This document shows positions 32,349 to 40,747 of a DNA stretch of 40,747 bases, one piece after another. Origin of the DNA: Kordiimonadaceae bacterium (GTDB lineage: Bacteria; Pseudomonadota; Alphaproteobacteria; Sphingomonadales; Kordiimonadaceae); assembly GCA_030148905.1 (NCBI GenBank), contig JASBSO010000070.1, positions 1 through 40,747 of the forward strand, written 5' to 3'. The notes beneath the pieces are model-generated. The model saw only the letters and a list, made by a program, of their open reading frames with translations. It searched no databases and was not told where the DNA came from. The translations under genes and the position numbers were made by a program. The first letter of the stretch is position 1. Every line of letters begins with the position of its first letter.

Positions 32349-32425
32349 GGCGAAGTAGCTCAGCTGGTTAGAGCACCGGAATCATAATCCGGGTGTCGGG
32401 GGTTCAAGTCCCTCCTTCGCTACCA
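32349..32425 (+). tRNA. tRNA-Met (elongator, anticodon CAT)
   Basis: The full 77-nt cloverleaf is visible: acceptor GGCGAAG/CTTCGCT (position 1-72 a G-U pair, usual in alphaproteobacterial tRNA-Met), D-arm GCTC-AGCTGGTTA-GAGC, anticodon stem CCGGA/TCCGG around ATCATAA (CAT), T-arm GGGGGTTCAAGTCCCTC, discriminator A and encoded CCA. The G1-U72 and full stem exclude initiator tRNA. A tRNA-Ile2 (CAU) is a less likely alternative, since the arms match alphaproteobacterial elongator tRNA-Met. It marks the border between core genes and accessory DNA. Confidence 0.93.
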
Positions 32426-33032
32426 AAATTCCTTCAAAAACAGACGTTTATACCAAAAATACGAGCTCTACGCAAGCTCATTTCTTACTGCCGAATTACC
32501 TTGAAATTTGGAAAATATCCACGTGTGTTTGGGCGTGTTTTGGCGCATTTGAATTGCGCCTAAAATTCTCTAAGACCGTTCTGAGACCTTGTTAGGGAAA
32601 TGTATGGAACTTATGCAGGGCCTAATCTCGAATCAAAATTCAGCTGCCAGAATGATTAATCTTCGAAGCCGTCAACACCTTAGCTTATCACACAGATCGT
32701 GCCAAAATAGCGAAATTGATGTGCTGAGCCAAATTCACACTGTTTGGTTTCCAGTATTCGTGTCATACGCATTTCTAAGAATGTATTGGCCTGATTAAAT
32801 TTACCGGCTGAATTTTTCATTGGCTGTGATCTGAGTTTTCAAGAGGCAATATCGGTGGGATAACAGTTTGGTTCGTAACTCGGTAAGAACACTTTTAGAT
32901 TGCGTTTGTACAAATAGGCACGCTGATGTATTTTAGAGACATGGAAGGGTACACACTTCAGCGCTTAATGTTGGGTAGGGCTGGTGTGGGCCATTTGAGG
33001 AATGTCTAAAATGGGTAGGACATAACAATTCT
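32426..33032. other. AT-rich non-coding stretch at the left edge of the accessory region
   Basis: I see no convincing gene here; the 69-aa ORF at 32589 has no motif and poor codon use. It holds a 6-bp hairpin GGCGCA-N7-TGCGCC (32542-32560), a 10-nt palindrome TTTGTACAAA (32905-32914) and an interrupted inverted pair TTTTAGAGACAT / ATGTCTAAAA (32931, 33002) just upstream of the HTH gene, which may be its operator region. Confidence 0.6.
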
Positions 33033-33395
33033 ATGACCCCATCAACGCGCAAAAGTGGTAATTACAAGGCGGGTATGCGCCCACAGCGGATGGCTGATGA
33101 TCTGCCGACGCGTCTTCGTTATGCGCAAAAAGGCCGTGTCTTGCGCGGCGCGATGAAGACCCTCGGTCTGACTATCTCTGAAATTGCAAATGAAATAGAT
33201 GTTTCGCAAGGGCACCTCTCAAAAGTTCTCGATACATACTGTGACCTCGAGATAACAACGTGCGATATGTACCTCGCGAAGGTGGCTGCTGCTCTGGCGA
33301 AGCGAGGTGTCAGGATTACAGAAAGTGATGAGCAGATCATGTTGATGTATGAGCGTTCGGGCTTTGACATCGATTTTAAGATACCCACCGACTAG
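33033..33395 (+). CDS. Small helix-turn-helix DNA-binding protein
   Basis: The 120-aa protein contains one HTH of the XRE/Cro type: GRVLRGAMKTLGLTISEIANEIDVSQGHLSKVLDTYCDLEITTCDMYLAKVAAALAKRG (about residues 34-92). The N-terminus is basic, and the acidic C-terminal tail has no recognised domain. It could be a repressor of the element or of neighbouring genes. GGTAGGA lies upstream of the ATG. Its 3' end overlaps the opposite-strand XRE gene by 20 nt. Composition is lower in GC than the core, consistent with transfer. Confidence 0.7.
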   Translation: MTPSTRKSGNYKAGMRPQRMADDLPTRLRYAQKGRVLRGAMKTLGLTISEIANEIDVSQGHLSKVLDTYCDLEITTCDMYLAKVAAALAKRGVRITESDEQIMLMYERSGFDIDFKIPTD

Positions 33396-33627
33396 AATTA
33401 TCTATTCCTTTTGTTTTGAGTAGTTCTACCCAGGCGACAGCTATGGCCGATGGGTCCGTTCCCATCGCGTGTGCGATGTCCGCTAGCTCTTGATCTGTCG
33501 GTGTTTTGCCGTTCTCAATTTGATTGTAACGTTTTGGCCCCAAGCCGGATGACCATGCAACATACTTTTGGAGCATGCCCTTGCTTTTGCGTACCTTTTT
33601 TATCGCCGTACTGAAAGAAGGTTCCAT
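33376..33627 (-). CDS. XRE-family transcriptional regulator
   Basis: This 83-aa protein is little more than a Cro/C1 HTH: FSTAIKKVRKSKGMLQKYVAWSSGLGPKRYNQIENGKTPTDQELADIAHAMGTDPSAIAVAWVELL. The two helices and the NQIENGKTPT turn are typical. I chose the ATG at 33627, where GGGGGA lies 7 nt upstream, rather than the GTG at 33651. A short inverted repeat GATA-AAC-TATC (33655-33665) in front could be an autoregulatory operator. It converges on the plus-strand HTH gene. Confidence 0.75.
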   Translation of the reverse strand: MEPSFSTAIKKVRKSKGMLQKYVAWSSGLGPKRYNQIENGKTPTDQELADIAHAMGTDPSAIAVAWVELLKTKGIDNSSRWVS

Positions 33628-33654
33628 TTTCTCGTCCCCCACCTCTGTCACTCG

Positions 33655-33665
33655 GATAAACTATC
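33655..33665 (-). promoter_or_regulatory. Possible operator in front of the XRE gene
   Basis: GATAAACTATC is an 11-nt inverted repeat, with a further GATAG direct copy nearby (AGATAGCGTGATAG on the minus strand), about 28 nt upstream of the XRE ATG. Autoregulation of small XRE repressors is common. This assignment is inference. Confidence 0.3.
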
Positions 33666-34230
33666 ACGCTATCTCGCAAGACATAGGCAGCATTTGTGTA
33701 AATCTATCAGGTGAAAGACGACATTTAGCGTGCATCAATCTCTTACCCGAGCCCCCTCAAGCAAGACCAATTATACTCAAAGTAGATTAAAATTCAACCG
33801 AATCGTCAAAGAAGAATGAATGCCGTATTCATAATTGCATAAAAATCGAAGCCTGTAAGGCACTGAAAATATTCATAAAAGAGGGTGAATCATATAAAGT
33901 CATCGCTAACGCAATGCATAAAATATGCATGGTGTGAAAAAAATAGAGCCATTTTTGCCCAATTTGAAATCGCCAAAAACGCAATGAAATCAATATTGTA
34001 TAACTAACAACATAAAAAGTTACCAAGCTGGCATGCCAGCCCGGTAATCGTTAGCGCTTTGAAAATCCCAAATTTCGCGGGACCCTAATGGCACGTCCGG
34101 AAGGGGGGCGAGATTGAGTTTCCGAAGACGCACGCTTTTGTAGATCGAAACATCATCACATTCACTCTCCTGTCGGGTTCAACGGCCAATTTTTGGCGAA
34201 GGGTCTGACGCCCGCAATGGAGATTGAACT
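33666..34230. other. AT-rich intergenic region with a strong palindrome
   Basis: About 370 nt (33650-34019) are very AT-rich and hold only a 65-aa hydrophobic minus-strand ORF (33829-34026) that I do not trust. At 34020 composition becomes more balanced. The following ~190 nt look like the leader of the DsbC-like gene, ending in a GGAG ribosome binding site 8 nt before its ATG. Confidence 0.55.
34020..34047. repeat. 28-nt interrupted palindrome
   Basis: TTACC-AA-GCTGGCATGCCAGC-CC-GGTAA: a perfect 14-nt core palindrome (GCTGGCATGCCAGC) flanked by matching 5-nt arms with two mismatched bases on each side. It lies where AT-rich DNA gives way to the conjugation-gene leader. There is no T-run, so a terminator is unlikely. 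An operator, recombination site or transfer-origin element is possible. Confidence 0.55.
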
Positions 34231-35016
34231 ATGTCTTTATCACGAACCTTATTATCGAGCGCTGCCACGATTGCGATGTTCGCCAGTATCACACTATCGC
34301 CGCCGCTTGCCGCAGCAGCAGAGGATGCAGTTGCACCCGATGATATTCAGGCGGAAGCCGAACAGCTGCTCAAGTCGAGCTTTGCAAACTTTCAGTTCTA
34401 TTCCGTCAAACCGTCCGCAGTCGACGGCCTCTATGAGATCGATACGGGCGGCAAGATTGTTTATTATTCAGCTGACGCCAATGTGCTCATCTTCGGCGAA
34501 ATGTATAATGATCGCGGCGAAAACCTTTCTGAAGCCGCCATTTCAAAAGCAGCGGCGGAGCGACTGAAGGGTTTGGACCTGAGCGTCGCGCTCGAATTTG
34601 GGCCGGAAGATGCTCCGCTCCTCACCGAATATTCAAATCCGCTTTGTGGCTGGTGTCAGCGCTTGCATGGCTGGTTTGACGGCGAGGGTCGTGATCTGAA
34701 TGTGCGCCGACAGATTATTTTTGCGGTCGGTCATTCAACAAAATCTCAGGAACTTGCCGAGCATATCCTTTGCTCTGCCGATCCTGAGCAAGCGTTTGCG
34801 GATGTCTATAACCGCAGAACCCCGAGACGTCTGGAGCGATGTGACGACGGCTATGCCCGCGTGCAGCAACATATCCAGATAACGCAAGCTGCAGGTGTCT
34901 CATCCACCCCAACCTTGTTCGCTGACGGCGAACGCATCCGAGGCTTCGATGCGATGAAAATTCGTGAGTATCTCATCGCTGCGAGCCCTCCTGAAATCCC
35001 ACGAGGAGACGATTAA
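34231..35016 (+). CDS. DsbC-family periplasmic thiol:disulfide protein of a conjugation module
   Basis: The 261-aa protein has a Sec signal peptide (TLLSSAATIAMFASITLSPPLAAAA), a small N-terminal cystatin-like domain (YSVKPSAVDGLYEIDTGGKIVYYSADANVLIFGEMYNDRGENLSE) and a thioredoxin-fold domain. In the latter NPLCGWCQRLHGWF carries the CxxC redox pair (CGWC here, where DsbC usually has CGYC) and STPTLFADGERIRGF holds the cis-Pro. DsbC-type isomerases are common in F-type conjugation clusters, where they help fold disulfide-rich pilus-assembly proteins. It overlaps the pilin-like gene by one base (TAATG), supporting this role. Confidence 0.85.
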   Translation: MSLSRTLLSSAATIAMFASITLSPPLAAAAEDAVAPDDIQAEAEQLLKSSFANFQFYSVKPSAVDGLYEIDTGGKIVYYSADANVLIFGEMYNDRGENLSEAAISKAAAERLKGLDLSVALEFGPEDAPLLTEYSNPLCGWCQRLHGWFDGEGRDLNVRRQIIFAVGHSTKSQELAEHILCSADPEQAFADVYNRRTPRRLERCDDGYARVQQHIQITQAAGVSSTPTLFADGERIRGFDAMKIREYLIAASPPEIPRGDD

Positions 35017-35378
35017 TGACTTTTTGGAGGAACCCCCGTTGTTTGGGCCACATGCAATCTGAAGGCATCGGGCTTGAGCGCATCTTTTTGAATACGATGG
35101 ACCGCGTCGCACTGTTGTTTTTGTTTTTGGTCCTTTCTGTACCGGCACTTGCCTTTACTGCTCCAACAACTGGTGATCTTGCGTTCGAGATTTACGACAT
35201 CATCGTCAACGACGGCATTGAAGGCCCGATCGGCGCCATGATCGCTGTTGCGAGTGTTGTGTTCGGCATCTTCGGGATCGCCAACCGTAACTGGTGGGCA
35301 ATGGGCGGCGGCTTTGCGGGCACAACGGCGATGGTCGCTGGCGAAGACATCGTCACCACCGTTGGCTTTTTAGTTTAA
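35016..35378 (+). CDS. traA: TraA-like conjugative pilin
   Basis: The 120-aa protein has a basic cytoplasmic head, a long hydrophobic leader (MDRVALLFLFLVLSVPALAF) and a short mature part with two further hydrophobic helices (IEGPIGAMIAVASVVFGIFGIANRN and WWAMGGGFAGTTAMVAGEDIVTTVGFLV). This is the leader-plus-two-helix plan of F-type TraA/VirB2 pilins. The family is too short and variable for identity by motif, but the next genes (TraL, TraE) fit the traA-traL-traE order exactly. An internal Met (MDRVALL, at about 35097) could be the true start. Confidence 0.75.
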   Translation: MTFWRNPRCLGHMQSEGIGLERIFLNTMDRVALLFLFLVLSVPALAFTAPTTGDLAFEIYDIIVNDGIEGPIGAMIAVASVVFGIFGIANRNWWAMGGGFAGTTAMVAGEDIVTTVGFLV

Positions 35379-35403
35379 CCCCCCTGCACCTTGGAGAGGA
35401 CAC

Positions 35404-35667
35404 ATGGAACGGATGCCGCAGTTTCTTCACAAACCAACCAAGTTTATCGGACTTGAGGATCAAGAATTTGCTGTGGTCTTCCTTGCCTACGTCCTCTCTC
35501 TTTTTTTCAAGGGCTATTCATTTTTCTATTTTCTCGGAGCGGCAGCATTGTTCATTCCGTTCAAACGCTCCAAGCCGAGAGGCTATATCGGCCATCTTTT
35601 TTACCGGGCCGGGTTCGGCAAACTACGCGGATATCCGGTTGCAGTCGCGGAGACATTCCATGAATGA
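35404..35667 (+). CDS. traL: TraL-like type IV conjugative transfer protein
   Basis: TraL is a small inner-membrane protein of the F-type transfer apparatus, equivalent to VirB3. The 87-aa sequence reads PQFLHKPTKFIGLEDQEFAVVFLAYVLSLFFKGYSFFYFLGAAALFIPFKRSKPRGYIGHLFYRAGFGKLRGYP. It has the two closely spaced hydrophobic segments and the RxxG(Y)xxHxxYrxG signature near the C-terminus. GGAGAGGA lies 5 nt before the ATG. It overlaps the traE start by 8 nt. Confidence 0.8.
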   Translation: MERMPQFLHKPTKFIGLEDQEFAVVFLAYVLSLFFKGYSFFYFLGAAALFIPFKRSKPRGYIGHLFYRAGFGKLRGYPVAVAETFHE

Positions 35668-35983
35668 GCATTCGCCAAAACAGCATTACGAACCGCGCGG
35701 CCCAGCAAACGAAGTACCCTACAAATCTTTTGTCTCGCGCTTCACAGATGCCACGTCAAACATATGGGCGGAAAACCGCGTCTTGCGTTTTATGGCGGTT
35801 TGCGTACTCGCTGCGTCCTTTGTGCTTGGTTATCTCGTACTTGCGGCCATGAACAAGCAGAAGACCATCATCGTTCCGTTCGGGCAGGGTGTTGAACATC
35901 TCTATCTTGTGGGCGACGAACCATCGGACGCCTATCTGGTTGCCATTGCACGCAACGTGGCCGTTATGCCGATGTCGGCATAA
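35660..35983 (+). pseudogene. traE: TraE-like conjugation protein, 3'-truncated by the RIT element
   Basis: TraE (VirB5/VirB8-type) is a mating-pair-formation membrane protein of ~190 aa. Only ~100 codons remain: a hydrophilic head, the transmembrane helix (VLRFMAVCVLAASFVLGYLVLAAM) and the start of the periplasmic domain (KTIIVPFGQGVEHLYLVGDEPSDAYLVAIARNVA). The frame then runs into a 20-nt palindrome that supplies the stop codon (VMPMSA*). The missing C-terminal half was not found on the far side of the recombinases. The track lists this frame as a longer ORF from 35294; the real start at 35660 overlaps traL. Confidence 0.78.
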
Positions 35984-36072
35984 AGGCCATAATGCCGCGC
36001 TTCGGATTATGCCGCGCTGACCCATCAATCTTTCGGTAACATAGATCTTTCAGCGCGGCACATCGGCATAAT
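35964..36072. repeat. Nested palindromes at the C-gene end of the RIT element
   Basis: A perfect palindrome TTATGCCGA-TG-TCGGCATAA (35964-35983) is followed by a 10-nt direct repeat ATGCCGCGCT (35992, 36009). A 10-bp inverted pair GCCGCGCTGA / TCAGCGCGGC (36011-36020, 36050-36059) comes next, and then ACATCGGCAT (36060-36069), the reverse complement of the first palindrome's left half. It abuts the stop of the third recombinase. This is the expected position and style of a RIT terminal repeat. Confidence 0.75.
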
Positions 36073-37071
36073 CTACAGGGCCTCCAAGAACGACAACAGC
36101 TCGTCGCCGGGTCGATAACGCCCATTTGGAGCATTGACAGGTTTCGTCAAAGCCATCGCTTTTTCCTTCAGTTCGATATCAGCGTGGATATAGACCTGCG
36201 TCGTCTCGACGGATTCATGGCCCAGCCAAAGGGCGATGATGGTTCGATCTACACCGCTTTGTAGAAGCTGCATTGCAGCAGTGTGGCGCAGAACATGTGG
36301 TGTGACGCGCTTCAATCTAAGGGTCGTGCTATTCAGCGCTGCCTTGGCCGCATTTTTCCGAACAATTCGCTCAATCGCGTCCCTGCTCAAAGGCGTGCCT
36401 CGGATCGTCGCAAACAGCGGATCGTTGGATGCCGCACAGGTTTCGGCCAACCACACTTTCAATGCGTTTCGGCTGTCTGTCCTTAGAGGTGTTGCGCGCT
36501 CCTTTCGGCCTTTGCCCACGCATCTGACATGAGACCCCGTTCCGAGTTCAACATCAGCCACGCGCAGGCCGATCAATTCCGAGACACGCAAGCCCGTCTG
36601 GAGCGTGGTCAGCAGTAGGACCCGATCACGCCGACCGAACCAAGTCGACTGATCGGGTGCCTTCAGCAATGCCTCCATCTCATCGCGTGTCAGAAAGTCC
36701 ACAACACGTTTTTCGTGCCGCTTGGACGGCATCGCCAGCACCCTTTGGCAATGATGCAACAATTGAGGTTCACAACCTGCCACATATTTGAAGAATGACC
36801 GAATGGCGGCAAGGCGCGTGTTTCGACTTCGTGCGCTATTGCCTCGTTCTTCTTCGCAAAAAGTTAAAAAATCCCCGATGATGTCGGCGTCGATATGTGC
36901 AACATGTAGGTCTGTTGGGGGCCGCTTGGTTTGCGCTTCCGCGTATTTGAGCAAGAGCCTGAAGGTGTCACGATAGCTGGCAATCGTGTTCGGGCTTGCC
37001 TGCATTTGCGTCAAGAGCCGCTCGGTAAAGAACCGTTGCACGAACACTGGCAATGGATAGGTCGCAATCAT
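36073..37071 (-). CDS. RIT tyrosine recombinase C
   Basis: The 332-aa protein is a phage-type integrase with an N-terminal SAM-like domain (FVQRFFTERLLTQMQASPNTIASYRDTFRLLLKYAEA) and a catalytic domain. Catalytic residues can be read as Arg in TGLRVSELIGL, Lys in VGKGRKERATPL, His/Arg in TPHVLRHTAAMQLL, His in WLGHESVETTQVYIHAD and Tyr in the same VYIHAD. Its start overlaps the stop of recombinase B by ATGA. It is the last gene of the trio; its stop touches the terminal repeats. In RIT elements all three recombinases are usually kept intact, although the role of each is not settled. Confidence 0.92.
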   Translation of the reverse strand: MIATYPLPVFVQRFFTERLLTQMQASPNTIASYRDTFRLLLKYAEAQTKRPPTDLHVAHIDADIIGDFLTFCEEERGNSARSRNTRLAAIRSFFKYVAGCEPQLLHHCQRVLAMPSKRHEKRVVDFLTRDEMEALLKAPDQSTWFGRRDRVLLLTTLQTGLRVSELIGLRVADVELGTGSHVRCVGKGRKERATPLRTDSRNALKVWLAETCAASNDPLFATIRGTPLSRDAIERIVRKNAAKAALNSTTLRLKRVTPHVLRHTAAMQLLQSGVDRTIIALWLGHESVETTQVYIHADIELKEKAMALTKPVNAPNGRYRPGDELLSFLEAL

Positions 37072-38012
37072 GATGCATCCTCCAAAACCCGCTGTTCGGC
37101 CCGCGCGGCGGCGAGCTGCATGAGTTCTGGCACGGCTTCGATGTACCAGAATGTGTGCTCCGGCTTAGAGTGTCCGAGATACGTGCTGAGCTTGTACATT
37201 TCGCATTCAATGTCCCTGCCATCGCGGAACCAATCCAGAATGGTGTGGACGGCAAAGCTATGTCTCAAATCGTGAATGCGAGGTCCGTGACCGTGGCGGT
37301 TGAAGGATTGAGGGGATCGCAACCCGATATTTTGGCTAACTTGCGCGAAGTTGTAACGCGCCCCGCAATCGCCAGCCGGTTCACCATCTTCCTTGATGAA
37401 GAACCGTCGCGACTGATCGTCGACCAACCGATCTCTCAAATTGGCATAGGATGCTAGCCGCGTGGCGGTATCCTTGTTGATCGGAAGCTGTCGATCTTTT
37501 CCGTTCTTGGTGTTCCTGACGACCAGAACAGCGTTGTCCAGATCAATATCATGTTGATCCAAAGACAGTGCTTCATTGACCCGCATTCCTGTCACAGCGA
37601 TCAATCCGAAGAGGGTTTGCCACAATGCAGCCCGCAGGCCATACGGTGACGTTAGTCGACCGGCCTCAGCGACGATATCTGCAATTTGCTTGGGTGCATA
37701 TATGTACGGGACACGCCTTCTATAGCGGCCTGCAACAAGCTGGCTGGGCGGGATCTCGGTCTCATCGTCGTGTTCCGCAAGCCAGAAGGCAAATCTACGA
37801 ACCATGCCGAGGCGACCAAACCACGTGTTGTTGTCCGCACTGCCATAGTTCTCTTTCCAGTCGAGGAACAAGGTTGTTGAGATCAGATGACGCCCGCTCT
37901 CATCGCCGTAAGTCGCGAACTTGCGTAGGACTCGTTCTTCGAAAGATAGGTCAAAACCCATCGCGCGGCGCAGTGCCAGATATTCGTCAAGCCGTTGTGA
38001 GAGCGTCTTCAT
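37068..38012 (-). CDS. RIT tyrosine recombinase B
   Basis: The 314-aa protein has an N-terminal core-binding domain (MKTLSQRLDEYLALRRAMGFDLSFEERVLRKFATY, typical of the second RIT recombinase) and a catalytic domain. The catalytic domain has Arg in TGMRVNEALSL, Lys in NTKNGKDRQLP, HxxR in HDLRHSFAVHTIL, His in LGHSKPEHTFWYIEA and Tyr in FWYIEA. I use the ATG at 38012, which overlaps the stop of recombinase A (ATGA) and matches the family start; the track start at 38036 would overlap A by 28 nt. All catalytic residues appear intact. Confidence 0.92.
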   Translation of the reverse strand: MKTLSQRLDEYLALRRAMGFDLSFEERVLRKFATYGDESGRHLISTTLFLDWKENYGSADNNTWFGRLGMVRRFAFWLAEHDDETEIPPSQLVAGRYRRRVPYIYAPKQIADIVAEAGRLTSPYGLRAALWQTLFGLIAVTGMRVNEALSLDQHDIDLDNAVLVVRNTKNGKDRQLPINKDTATRLASYANLRDRLVDDQSRRFFIKEDGEPAGDCGARYNFAQVSQNIGLRSPQSFNRHGHGPRIHDLRHSFAVHTILDWFRDGRDIECEMYKLSTYLGHSKPEHTFWYIEAVPELMQLAAARAEQRVLEDAS

Positions 38013-39256
38013 TGCACGTCCCCCGCAGTTGGCCAAGGGCGCGAGATTGAGCCCAGGGCATCCACATCGTGTTGCGCATAAATCGTCGTGGTCAGCGGAG
38101 ACCGGTGACGCAGCACGTCCCCAATGTCAGAGAGCGATGCACCCTTACGCAACATGTCAGTGGCAAGGCTGTGTCGTAGAATATGGGTGCCGATATAGGC
38201 TTGTGGCGGGCTGATTCCTGTTGCGTCATAAGCGTCACGCAAAATCCAGCGCAGGATTTGAGCATCCTTAAACCTCTTGAATGGCGGTTTTACCGAGACA
38301 AACAACGCACGGGCCTGCCCCCGGCGTTCGTTCTGAATGTAATCCACAATCGCTTCGCCAACCTCTGCGGACATCGGCATCCGGTCTTGCAACTGTCCTT
38401 TGCCCCGGATCAGTATCTCACCCGCACGCCAATCGATGTCATCTAACTCTATCGCTGTCACCTCTGGGGCTCGAAGGCCCAGACGGGCGATAAGCATCAG
38501 CATTGCATAGTTGCGTCGGCCTGTTTTCTTGTGACCTCGAACCACATCTAACAGGCGGTTGACTTGGTCTGGCTCGAGATATCGGGGGATGCCGGTCGGC
38601 TTTGGTTGCCGCGCCTTTGGCACCGATTTGCTCAGGTTCCGTTCTGTTTTTCCGCTCCAAAACAAGAATTGGAAGAGATTGCGAAGATGTGACGGACCAG
38701 TTTTGTCGCGCGGCGCATTTTGCTCTTCGCGTAGTCGGAGAATGAAGCCCGATATGTCGTCGGGTTTGATCGCATTCAAATCACCCAAACCCATACCGAA
38801 TTTTGCAGTCAAAAAACGCTCGTAGAAGCGAAGGCAATGATAGATCGTATCGCTGGACAGCCCACGCTGAACGCGGAGATAGGTCTCGTACTCGCGTTTA
38901 AGGCAGGCTCTAGGGGTCATGTCCAACGGAGGGGGCAGACGTGTAGGGGCATCTGCGTTCTCAATCAAATAGTCCCTGAACCGATTCAGGCGGTATCGAC
39001 AATGTTTTTGGTCTTTCGGAGAAGCGGCGTTGATGATCGGCAAGGCAAGTTGGTCCATGCGGTCATCGGTCAAATCAGCGGGACCAAGCTTGGCCGCATC
39101 CATTACAGACCAAAGGGTCCCGGCTGTGGTGCCGTATTTGGCAACGGAACCCTGACTGTAACCCTCAGCCTCAATCTGTGACGCGAAGCGCTCCGAGTGG
39201 TTGCCCGTGTGCTTACTTGTCTTCGTCGGGCGATCTGATTGCGTGTCGTTTTCCAT
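38009..39256 (-). CDS. RIT tyrosine recombinase A
   Basis: The 415-aa protein is the longest of the trio and is transcribed first. It has a charged N-terminal arm, a core-binding domain (LKREYETYLRVQRGLSSDTIYHCLRFYERFLTAKFG) and a catalytic domain with Arg in LGLRAPEVTAI, Lys in RGKGQLQDRMPM, HxxR in GTHILRHSLATDML, His in LRHRSPLTTTIYAQHD and Tyr in TIYAQ. The ATG at 39256 has AAGGA 7-8 nt upstream; earlier GTG/ATG choices at 39295 and 39271 lack one. Its stop overlaps the B start. Confidence 0.92.
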   Translation of the reverse strand: MENDTQSDRPTKTSKHTGNHSERFASQIEAEGYSQGSVAKYGTTAGTLWSVMDAAKLGPADLTDDRMDQLALPIINAASPKDQKHCRYRLNRFRDYLIENADAPTRLPPPLDMTPRACLKREYETYLRVQRGLSSDTIYHCLRFYERFLTAKFGMGLGDLNAIKPDDISGFILRLREEQNAPRDKTGPSHLRNLFQFLFWSGKTERNLSKSVPKARQPKPTGIPRYLEPDQVNRLLDVVRGHKKTGRRNYAMLMLIARLGLRAPEVTAIELDDIDWRAGEILIRGKGQLQDRMPMSAEVGEAIVDYIQNERRGQARALFVSVKPPFKRFKDAQILRWILRDAYDATGISPPQAYIGTHILRHSLATDMLRKGASLSDIGDVLRHRSPLTTTIYAQHDVDALGSISRPWPTAGDVQ

Positions 39257-39601
39257 AGGTATTTCCTTCATTTGGTTGAAGGGTAAACTTATCACAGATC
39301 ACGAATGCAGACGCTCAGCGCGTGAACTTGGAGGTGCACACTGCGGACGAAGCGGACATCCTCAGTTCATACTTGAACGTCTGGATTTCGCCAGAAGCGG
39401 AAGGTCATCGGAGTCAAAATCACGACAGTTGAAAGGCTCGAACCGACCCAACGCGGACAGTTTTAATCCCCGGTATAAGGGTGTGTGTGGGCAAAAACAT
39501 TTAACCCATGTGCCAAATAAAAAAGCCACCGCTCGTCTGTGCTTATTTGTTTAGGCATTCCTTGGATTTCAAACCTATCAATACCAGGATTTGCTTAAAT
39601 A
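39257..39601. other. Non-coding stretch right of the RIT element
   Basis: I see no gene in these ~345 nt. It must include the promoter of the recombinase trio and probably the right end of the element and the junction with host DNA. I note a short stem GTTCA-TACT-TGAAC (around 39367) and TCAGCGCG (39315-39322), shared with the left-end repeats. No TraE continuation is present in any frame. Confidence 0.5.
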
Positions 39602-40033
39602 TCAGTAAGGATTTGCTTTGTGGCAACTGATACAGGCACCAGTAACGCGGCCTGCCATATAGTAACGTTCTCTCTGAGCATACCGTATAGCCATATCCAC
39701 ATCAGAAAGGAATTCATCCATTCCGTCTGCCAAGAACTCATGCCTGGAACGGATGTCACCGTATCTTAGGTTCCTTCCGATACGCTCAATTCTATTAAGG
39801 CTATCAATAACGGATTGCTGAAAAAATGGGGTCTCATCATATTCGTCTGAAAGAGCGCCATCGAGCCTTTGTAGTGCATATGCAAGCTGGTGCATACCCG
39901 AGCGTAATTCCTCGCCGTCCTCGTAATCAAAAGCAGGAGGGTTTGCGACCTGAGGAAAACTGCCATTATTGCTTGCGCACCCCGCTAAGGTTAGACACAT
40001 GCAAGCGCCTATGGATAAAGACAAATATTTCAT
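39602..40033 (-). CDS. Monoheme c-type cytochrome lipoprotein (cytochrome c'-like)
   Basis: The 143-aa protein starts with a lipoprotein signal (SIGACMCLTLAGC, lipobox LAGC) and is therefore probably anchored to a membrane on the periplasmic side. The body is helical (ELRSGMHQLAYALQRLDGAL; SVIDSLNRIERIGRNLRYG; ADGMDEFLSDVDMAIRYAQRERYYMAG) and ends with VTGACISCHKANPY. CISCH is a CxxCH heme-attachment motif at the extreme C-terminus, as in four-helix cytochromes c' and c-556. The function could be electron transfer or ligand (NO) binding; no partner gene is seen. Its lower GC sets it apart from the motility genes. Confidence 0.8.
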   Translation of the reverse strand: MKYLSLSIGACMCLTLAGCASNNGSFPQVANPPAFDYEDGEELRSGMHQLAYALQRLDGALSDEYDETPFFQQSVIDSLNRIERIGRNLRYGDIRSRHEFLADGMDEFLSDVDMAIRYAQRERYYMAGRVTGACISCHKANPY

Positions 40034-40214: not shown

Positions 40215-40298
40215 AAAAAAAAAGTGACCGGGCGCATCTGTGGGAAGGATGACCTGCTTACAGGAGAGAAAACGGGATTTTCTCGTCGCCCGATCACT
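40215..40298 (-). ncRNA. Candidate small RNA with intrinsic terminator
   Basis: Read on the minus strand, a 12-bp helix AGTGATCGGGCG / CGCCCGGTCACT (one G-U pair) closes a 52-nt interior and is followed by nine Ts, the shape of an RNA 3' end. Inside are a 7-bp hairpin GAGAAAA-TCCCG-TTTTCTC, a 4-bp hairpin CCTG-TAAG-CAGG, and a single-stranded CATCCTTCCCAC whose CCUUCCC could pair with Shine-Dalgarno sequences. No ORF explains it. I do not recognise a known RNA family. Transcription has not been shown. Confidence 0.5.
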
Positions 40299-40321
40299 AG
40301 CTGGGTAGACTAACAAATAAT

Positions 40322-40337
40322 TGTTTCCATGGAAACA
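40322..40337. promoter_or_regulatory. Perfect 16-bp palindrome, probable operator
   Basis: TGTTTCCATGGAAACA is its own reverse complement and resembles binding sites of dimeric LacI- or IclR-type repressors. It lies between the thioesterase start (52 nt downstream on plus) and the candidate RNA (23 nt downstream on minus), so it could control either or both. Confidence 0.55.
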
Positions 40338-40389
40338 TATAATTGATATGACCATGTGGTGACGCATTTTTCCAAATATCGAGGTGTAA

Positions 40390-40747
40390 ATGACAAATTC
40401 AGGTCAGTTTGAGCAATCCTTCGACGACAACTCCCATTCTTTGTTTTCTCTGCTAAAGCTTCGCGATGTTAGCGCAGGCGGCGCACAGGTGTGCGCATGC
40501 CTTCCCTATCAAGAGAGCTTCAGTGGCGGAGCGGACAGGGGACTAGCCAAAGGATGGTCGGTTATCACGCTGGATACACTTCTTGGCATGGCCGTCTATG
40601 GCCGATTGCAAGAAACCAGACCGATTGCGACCATCGATCTTGCTGTAGATTATCTGGAGCCTGCCGGTAAAGGGGCAGATTTAATTTGTGAGGCAAATTG
40701 CCACGACATCAAAGACAATATTGCCTTTGTCAGCGGCTGTATCAGCG
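40390..40747 (+). CDS. PaaI-like hotdog-fold thioesterase (3' partial)
   Basis: The frame starts at ATG 40390 with GAGG 5 nt upstream and is still open at the window edge (119 codons seen). After a polar N-terminus the sequence fits the PaaI/YbgC-like hotdog fold: the central helix region RGLAKGWSVITLDTLLGMAVYGRL and the strand RPIATIDLAVDYLEPAGKGADLICEANC. Enzymes of this family hydrolyse acyl- or aryl-CoA thioesters. Substrate and neighbours are outside the window. It was missed by the ORF track because it has no stop. Confidence 0.75.
   Translation, partial: MTNSGQFEQSFDDNSHSLFSLLKLRDVSAGGAQVCACLPYQESFSGGADRGLAKGWSVITLDTLLGMAVYGRLQETRPIATIDLAVDYLEPAGKGADLICEANCHDIKDNIAFVSGCIS

Follow-up and report, generated by a model that had tools for sequence, protein, structure and literature searches.

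Near one end of a 40,747-nucleotide stretch of DNA from a Kordiimonadaceae bacterium (contig JASBSO010000070.1; hereafter the window), a noncoding gap carries inverted repeats and a run of Ts, which raises the question of whether it encodes a discrete small RNA and, if so, in what regulatory setting that RNA would act. In this study, we performed a computational analysis of this locus and its relatives. Our analyses suggested that it looks like a hitherto undescribed bacterial small-RNA gene of ∼84 nt, probably a new gene of a familiar type whose regulatory setting is of interest. The gene is predicted on the minus strand at 40215-40298, where a preliminary description had correctly located it, on the basis of its fold, an intact homologue in genome G023, a truncated homologue in genome G013 and a conservation above that of the adjacent noncoding DNA.

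The RNA, read on the minus strand from 40298 to 40215 (AGTGATCGGGCGACGAGAAAATCCCGTTTTCTCTCCTGTAAGCAGGTCATCCTTCCCACAGATGCGCCCGGTCACTTTTTTTTT), is closed by a helix of 12 bp as first described, in which positions 40298-40287 pair with 40234-40223 and one U.G pair is included. Its 5' arm, AGUGAUCGGGCG (40287-40298), is invariant in G023 in all but the terminal pair, and its 3' arm, CGCCCGGUCACU (40223-40234), forms a U-A pair in G023 at the place of the U.G pair in the window. A U9 tract (40215-40223; U7 in G023) is the predicted intrinsic terminator. The nine Ts reported earlier are all present at 40223-40215, but the first doubles as the final helix base, so that eight Us follow the 12-bp stem. 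The folding energy of the 84-nt RNA was -33.9 kcal/mol (z -5.06), and none of 200 shuffled sequences folded as well. Furthermore, a direct scan for perfect stems with 12 or more bp, 7 or more GC pairs and a following run of 7 or more Ts yielded a single case in the window and none in 200 dinucleotide shuffles of its full length, which bears out the early impression that the structure is unlikely by chance.

Two inner hairpins had been proposed, and they fared differently. The first, GAGAAAAU-CCC-GUUUUCUC (40266-40284), was described with a 7-bp stem, counts 8 bp with its U.G pair, has a pair probability above 0.95 and is identical in sequence in the window, G023 and G013; its loop, UCCCG, is the firmly open loop of the RNA. 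The second, a candidate 4-bp hairpin CCUG-UAAG-CAGG (40253-40264), competes with a CUGU/ACAG pairing: in the window the CCUG/CAGG pairs reached a probability of 0.11 and the alternative 0.87, in the G023 copy 0.62 and 0.36, respectively. As a result of this competition, the ensemble predicted for the window shows the motif CCUUCCC (40248-40242) as partly paired and not as a simple open loop, so its description as exposed was not upheld. The motif lies in a C-rich segment, CAUCCUUCCCACAGAUG (40235-40251), which reads CAUUCUUCCCACAGAUG in G023 and is missing from the truncated G013 copy.

A covariance search of the window and the two homologous loci against Rfam 15 returned no family above the gathering threshold, in line with the initial failure to recognise one, and at E up to 5 no meaningful match for the RNA appeared. 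DNA and covariance searches, which covered the family and overlapping samples of 401 genomes from the order, 385 from the class and 399 from the phylum, recovered homologues from G023 and G013 alone, both of which belong to a different genus within the family, and each genome holds a single copy. The plasmid, phage and IMG/VR collections gave no match to the RNA. Several weaker candidates were set aside: an 18-mer of loop DNA had 8 matches in 84,980 species genomes, scattered over phyla and taken as chance; a weak covariance match in G1067 lies antisense within a helicase-like gene and was likewise attributed to chance; and of two weak blast matches read in same-genus genomes (L015 and L017), one was a copy of the operator discussed below and one a probable chance match.

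The intact G023 copy is identical to the window at 79/84 bases (94%). By comparison, nearby noncoding DNA outside the operator is identical at 40/60 positions, namely 12/19 in the 19-nt stretch that separates the operator from the RNA and 28/41 in the thioesterase leader (63-68%), and the difference in identity between the RNA and these two adjacent segments was significant (Fisher p = 3e-5). The operator segment itself is identical at 30/31 positions between window and G023 (operator identity 97-100%). In the helices, the window and G023 differ by one U.G/U-A exchange, one C-G/U.G exchange and the loss of the terminal A-U pair, so the substitutions in G023 preserve the stems except at that terminal pair. 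No pair changed on both sides, and hence no covariation was found between the two intact copies; the compensatory changes for which a homologue alignment had been proposed were not seen. The G013 copy departs from the alignment at about nt 47, and an IS66-type element starts 30 bases further on. A full-length covariance match in G013 was rejected as a false join, since its 3' arm, GCGCCCGGTGATC, matches the left end of an intact copy of the IS66-type element in that locus (L046:2301 onward). The G013 copy is thus taken as broken, and the RNA is therefore dispensable there.

The surroundings on the promoter side are shared by the three genomes. In G013 and G023, an RND pump gene (AcrB family), a membrane-fusion protein (MFP) gene, an operator, a MarR-family gene, a double-4HBT thioesterase gene, a second operator and the RNA follow one another in this order. 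The window holds the divergent, PaaI-like double-4HBT thioesterase gene (40390-40746, plus strand; Pfam PF03061/PF13622 on the full G013 orthologue, with which it shares 92% amino-acid identity); its contig stops inside this gene, the MarR and pump genes are absent from it, and a search for the MarR gene in the window's assembly (93% complete) did not find it. In all three genomes the palindrome TTGTTTCCATGGAAACA separates the RNA from the thioesterase gene. In the window it forms a palindromic operator, TTGTTTCCATGGAAACAT (40321-40338), the predicted site of the local MarR-family repressor. Without mismatch, TTGTWTCCATGGAAACA occurs once in the window's assembly and in exactly two places in each of G013 and G023, the second lying between marR and the efflux genes. 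As the exact sequence is thus confined to the module's two promoter regions in G013 and G023, the palindrome is, judged from sequence, very likely the operator of the module's MarR.

A putative promoter overlaps this operator. The predicted -35 element, TTTCCA (40330-40335, minus strand), lies within the operator, 17 nt from a predicted -10 element, TAGTCT (40307-40312, minus strand; TAAGCT in G023 and TATGCT in G013), both assigned by pattern, and in the window, G013 and G023 alike the pattern TTTCCA-17 nt-TAnnnT lies across the palindrome in the same position. A generic sigma-70 promoter scan did not include this arrangement among its listed promoters, so we infer the promoter from its pattern. 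The predicted RNA start would then be ∼40300, at the foot of the closing helix. This start also bears on an open reading frame (40367-40158) that reads across the RNA, in a frame likewise open in G023, and might suggest a small protein. We rejected that reading as highly improbable, since its start codon is upstream of the predicted transcript start, its ATG is kept in neither G023 nor G013 and the frame ends differently in each genome. Taken together, the fold, the U tail, the promoter/operator anatomy common to the three genomes and the RNA's selective conservation in G023 support the original proposal of a discrete RNA gene.

The same anatomy could be read in another way, with the structure doing no more than halting unwanted divergent transcription from the MarR operator/promoter, away from the thioesterase, and the RNA being a target-less by-product. 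The terminator form does lie immediately 3' of the divergent promoter, G013 lost the 3' half while retaining the module, and a relative of the module in G029 lacks the structure. However, a plain terminator needs neither an invariant 8-bp inner hairpin nor conserved loops, and conservation over the RNA's 5' part amounts to 96-98%, exceeding that of the flanking noncoding DNA; we therefore consider this explanation unlikely, although it is the strongest of the competing ones.

Downstream of the RNA the three genomes differ. In the window, a small lipoprotein gene with a C-terminal CISCH (CxxCH) and no Pfam match (39602-40033, minus strand) begins ∼180 nt away on the same strand, which would allow the helix to be a regulated terminator in its 5' leader. 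At the other two loci (L003/L004) this gene is absent: G023 has unrelated reverse-strand ORFs instead, recombinase-like fragments of which one resembles a serine recombinase by eye with no Pfam match, and G013 an IS66 remnant. The window and G023 part ∼14 nt beyond the T-run, and a competing antiterminator was not noticed. Because its 3' neighbours differ in each genome, the RNA does not serve any conserved gene as its leader; the three loci share no same-strand downstream gene of the kind that would mark a cis-regulatory leader or riboswitch, and we judge attenuation improbable. The foreign DNA just 3' of the RNA in all three genomes, including a tyrosine recombinase trio near the window's copy besides the fragment in G023 and the remnant in G013, could instead suggest that the inverted repeat is targeted by recombination or insertion and yields no RNA. 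Yet the break points vary, falling within the RNA in G013 and beyond the T-run in G023 and the window, each genome has one copy, and the T-run and promoter would be left unexplained, which makes a DNA site a still more doubtful choice.

FlhA of the window shares 71-72% identity with FlhA of G013 and G023, against 92% for the thioesterase and 94% for the RNA, and this disparity suggests that the efflux/thioesterase module, together with the RNA, was probably transferred between genera. In the window, the module is located beyond the tyrosine recombinase trio (36073-39295). These three adjacent, overlapping genes, all minus-strand and accompanied by inverted repeats (36010-36060), resemble a recombinase-in-trio (RIT) element, which appears to split a TraE-like conjugation gene near 35983. 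The region 32349-35983, in which a tRNA-Met gene precedes a DsbC-like gene and fragments resembling F-type conjugation genes (pilin-like and TraE-like), may be the relic of a conjugative element integrated at a tRNA. In G013, a gene for a 1044-aa DEAD/ResIII helicase (L046:10757-13891) adjoins the module, and this neighbourhood may form an island of defence or accessory genes.

As the best explanation of the locus we favour, with modest confidence, a MarR-controlled, stand-alone sRNA gene of the Hfq type on a horizontally spread module. First, the RNA promoter would overlap the operator of a MarR-family repressor from the same efflux/thioesterase cluster, so that the RNA, the thioesterase and the RND pump would be produced together when the repressor leaves the DNA. 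Second, the transcript would run from the base of the 12-bp helix to the U9 tract, and the closure of its 5' and 3' ends would stabilise it. Third, the RNA would probably act by Hfq-assisted base-pairing through its C-rich loops, UCCCG and CUUCCC. A U tail of at least seven residues fits Hfq binding, as in Hfq sRNAs; such tails are found in the window (U9) and in G023 (U7), and an Hfq gene is present in the window's genome, G013 and G023. In a duplex test of 26 gene starts of the window and 8 neighbour starts in relatives, the neighbours scored low and the top window match was indistinguishable from background. The anti-Shine-Dalgarno (anti-SD), trans-acting role first suggested for CCUUCCC is a tentative proposal: the predicted fold pairs the motif in part, it is unlike CCUCCUCCC, which marks known anti-SD RNAs of Alphaproteobacteria, and no target stood out among these starts. 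The start regions of the thioesterase, MarR, MFP and RND genes (G013/G023) gave low duplex energies with the RNA, and this low rank of the module's own genes makes action on unlinked mRNAs more likely; the most likely effect would be their translational repression under exposure to pump substrates. As a counterpoint, upstream of the related thioesterase gene in G029 there is an incomplete palindrome but no sRNA.

If produced and regulated as predicted, the RNA would represent an undescribed sRNA family wired directly to a MarR-type sensor and carried with efflux genes, and so a small and testable example of how an accessory module can import its own post-transcriptional regulator. A bolder version, which we put forward only as speculation, is that the mobile module brings along an sRNA governed by the same MarR switch, by which an arriving pump also reprograms envelope or metabolic mRNAs of its host.

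Known systems offer partial likenesses. The AbcR/alpha-r families share the size class and the U-rich 3' end, but the Rfam search matched none of them at the gathering score or meaningfully at E up to 5. MarR-controlled RND efflux operons similarly combine a divergent MarR gene with a palindromic operator before MFP/RND genes, whereas here a second, predicted operator would drive the thioesterase and, divergently, the RNA. The anti-SD sRNAs SmelA075 and SmelA099 of Rhizobiales contain three to four hairpins that all bear CCUCCUCCC (PMC3927594), and resemble the present RNA in displaying C-rich loops on hairpins; in contrast, the RNA lacks CCUCCUCCC, and therefore the three or more hairpin loops with this motif, and has a single UCCCG loop, a CCUUCCC segment and a closing helix of 12 bp. 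In Enterobacteriaceae, MicF and further envelope sRNAs of the mar/sox/rob network serve efflux and permeability control by base-pairing at ribosome binding sites (PMC7355843). The likeness to MicF, an sRNA tied to the same kind of control, would be a functional analogy only: the two have no sequence relation, and here direct control by a local MarR operator is predicted and the RNA is carried with the pump genes.

At L048:2900-3018 in G029, the orthologous thioesterase gene is preceded by a partly degenerate palindrome, ATGTTTCTGCGGAAACAT, without the sRNA, and the DNA upstream of this gene contains a different 9-bp inverted repeat, CCTATTTCA/TGAAATAGG.
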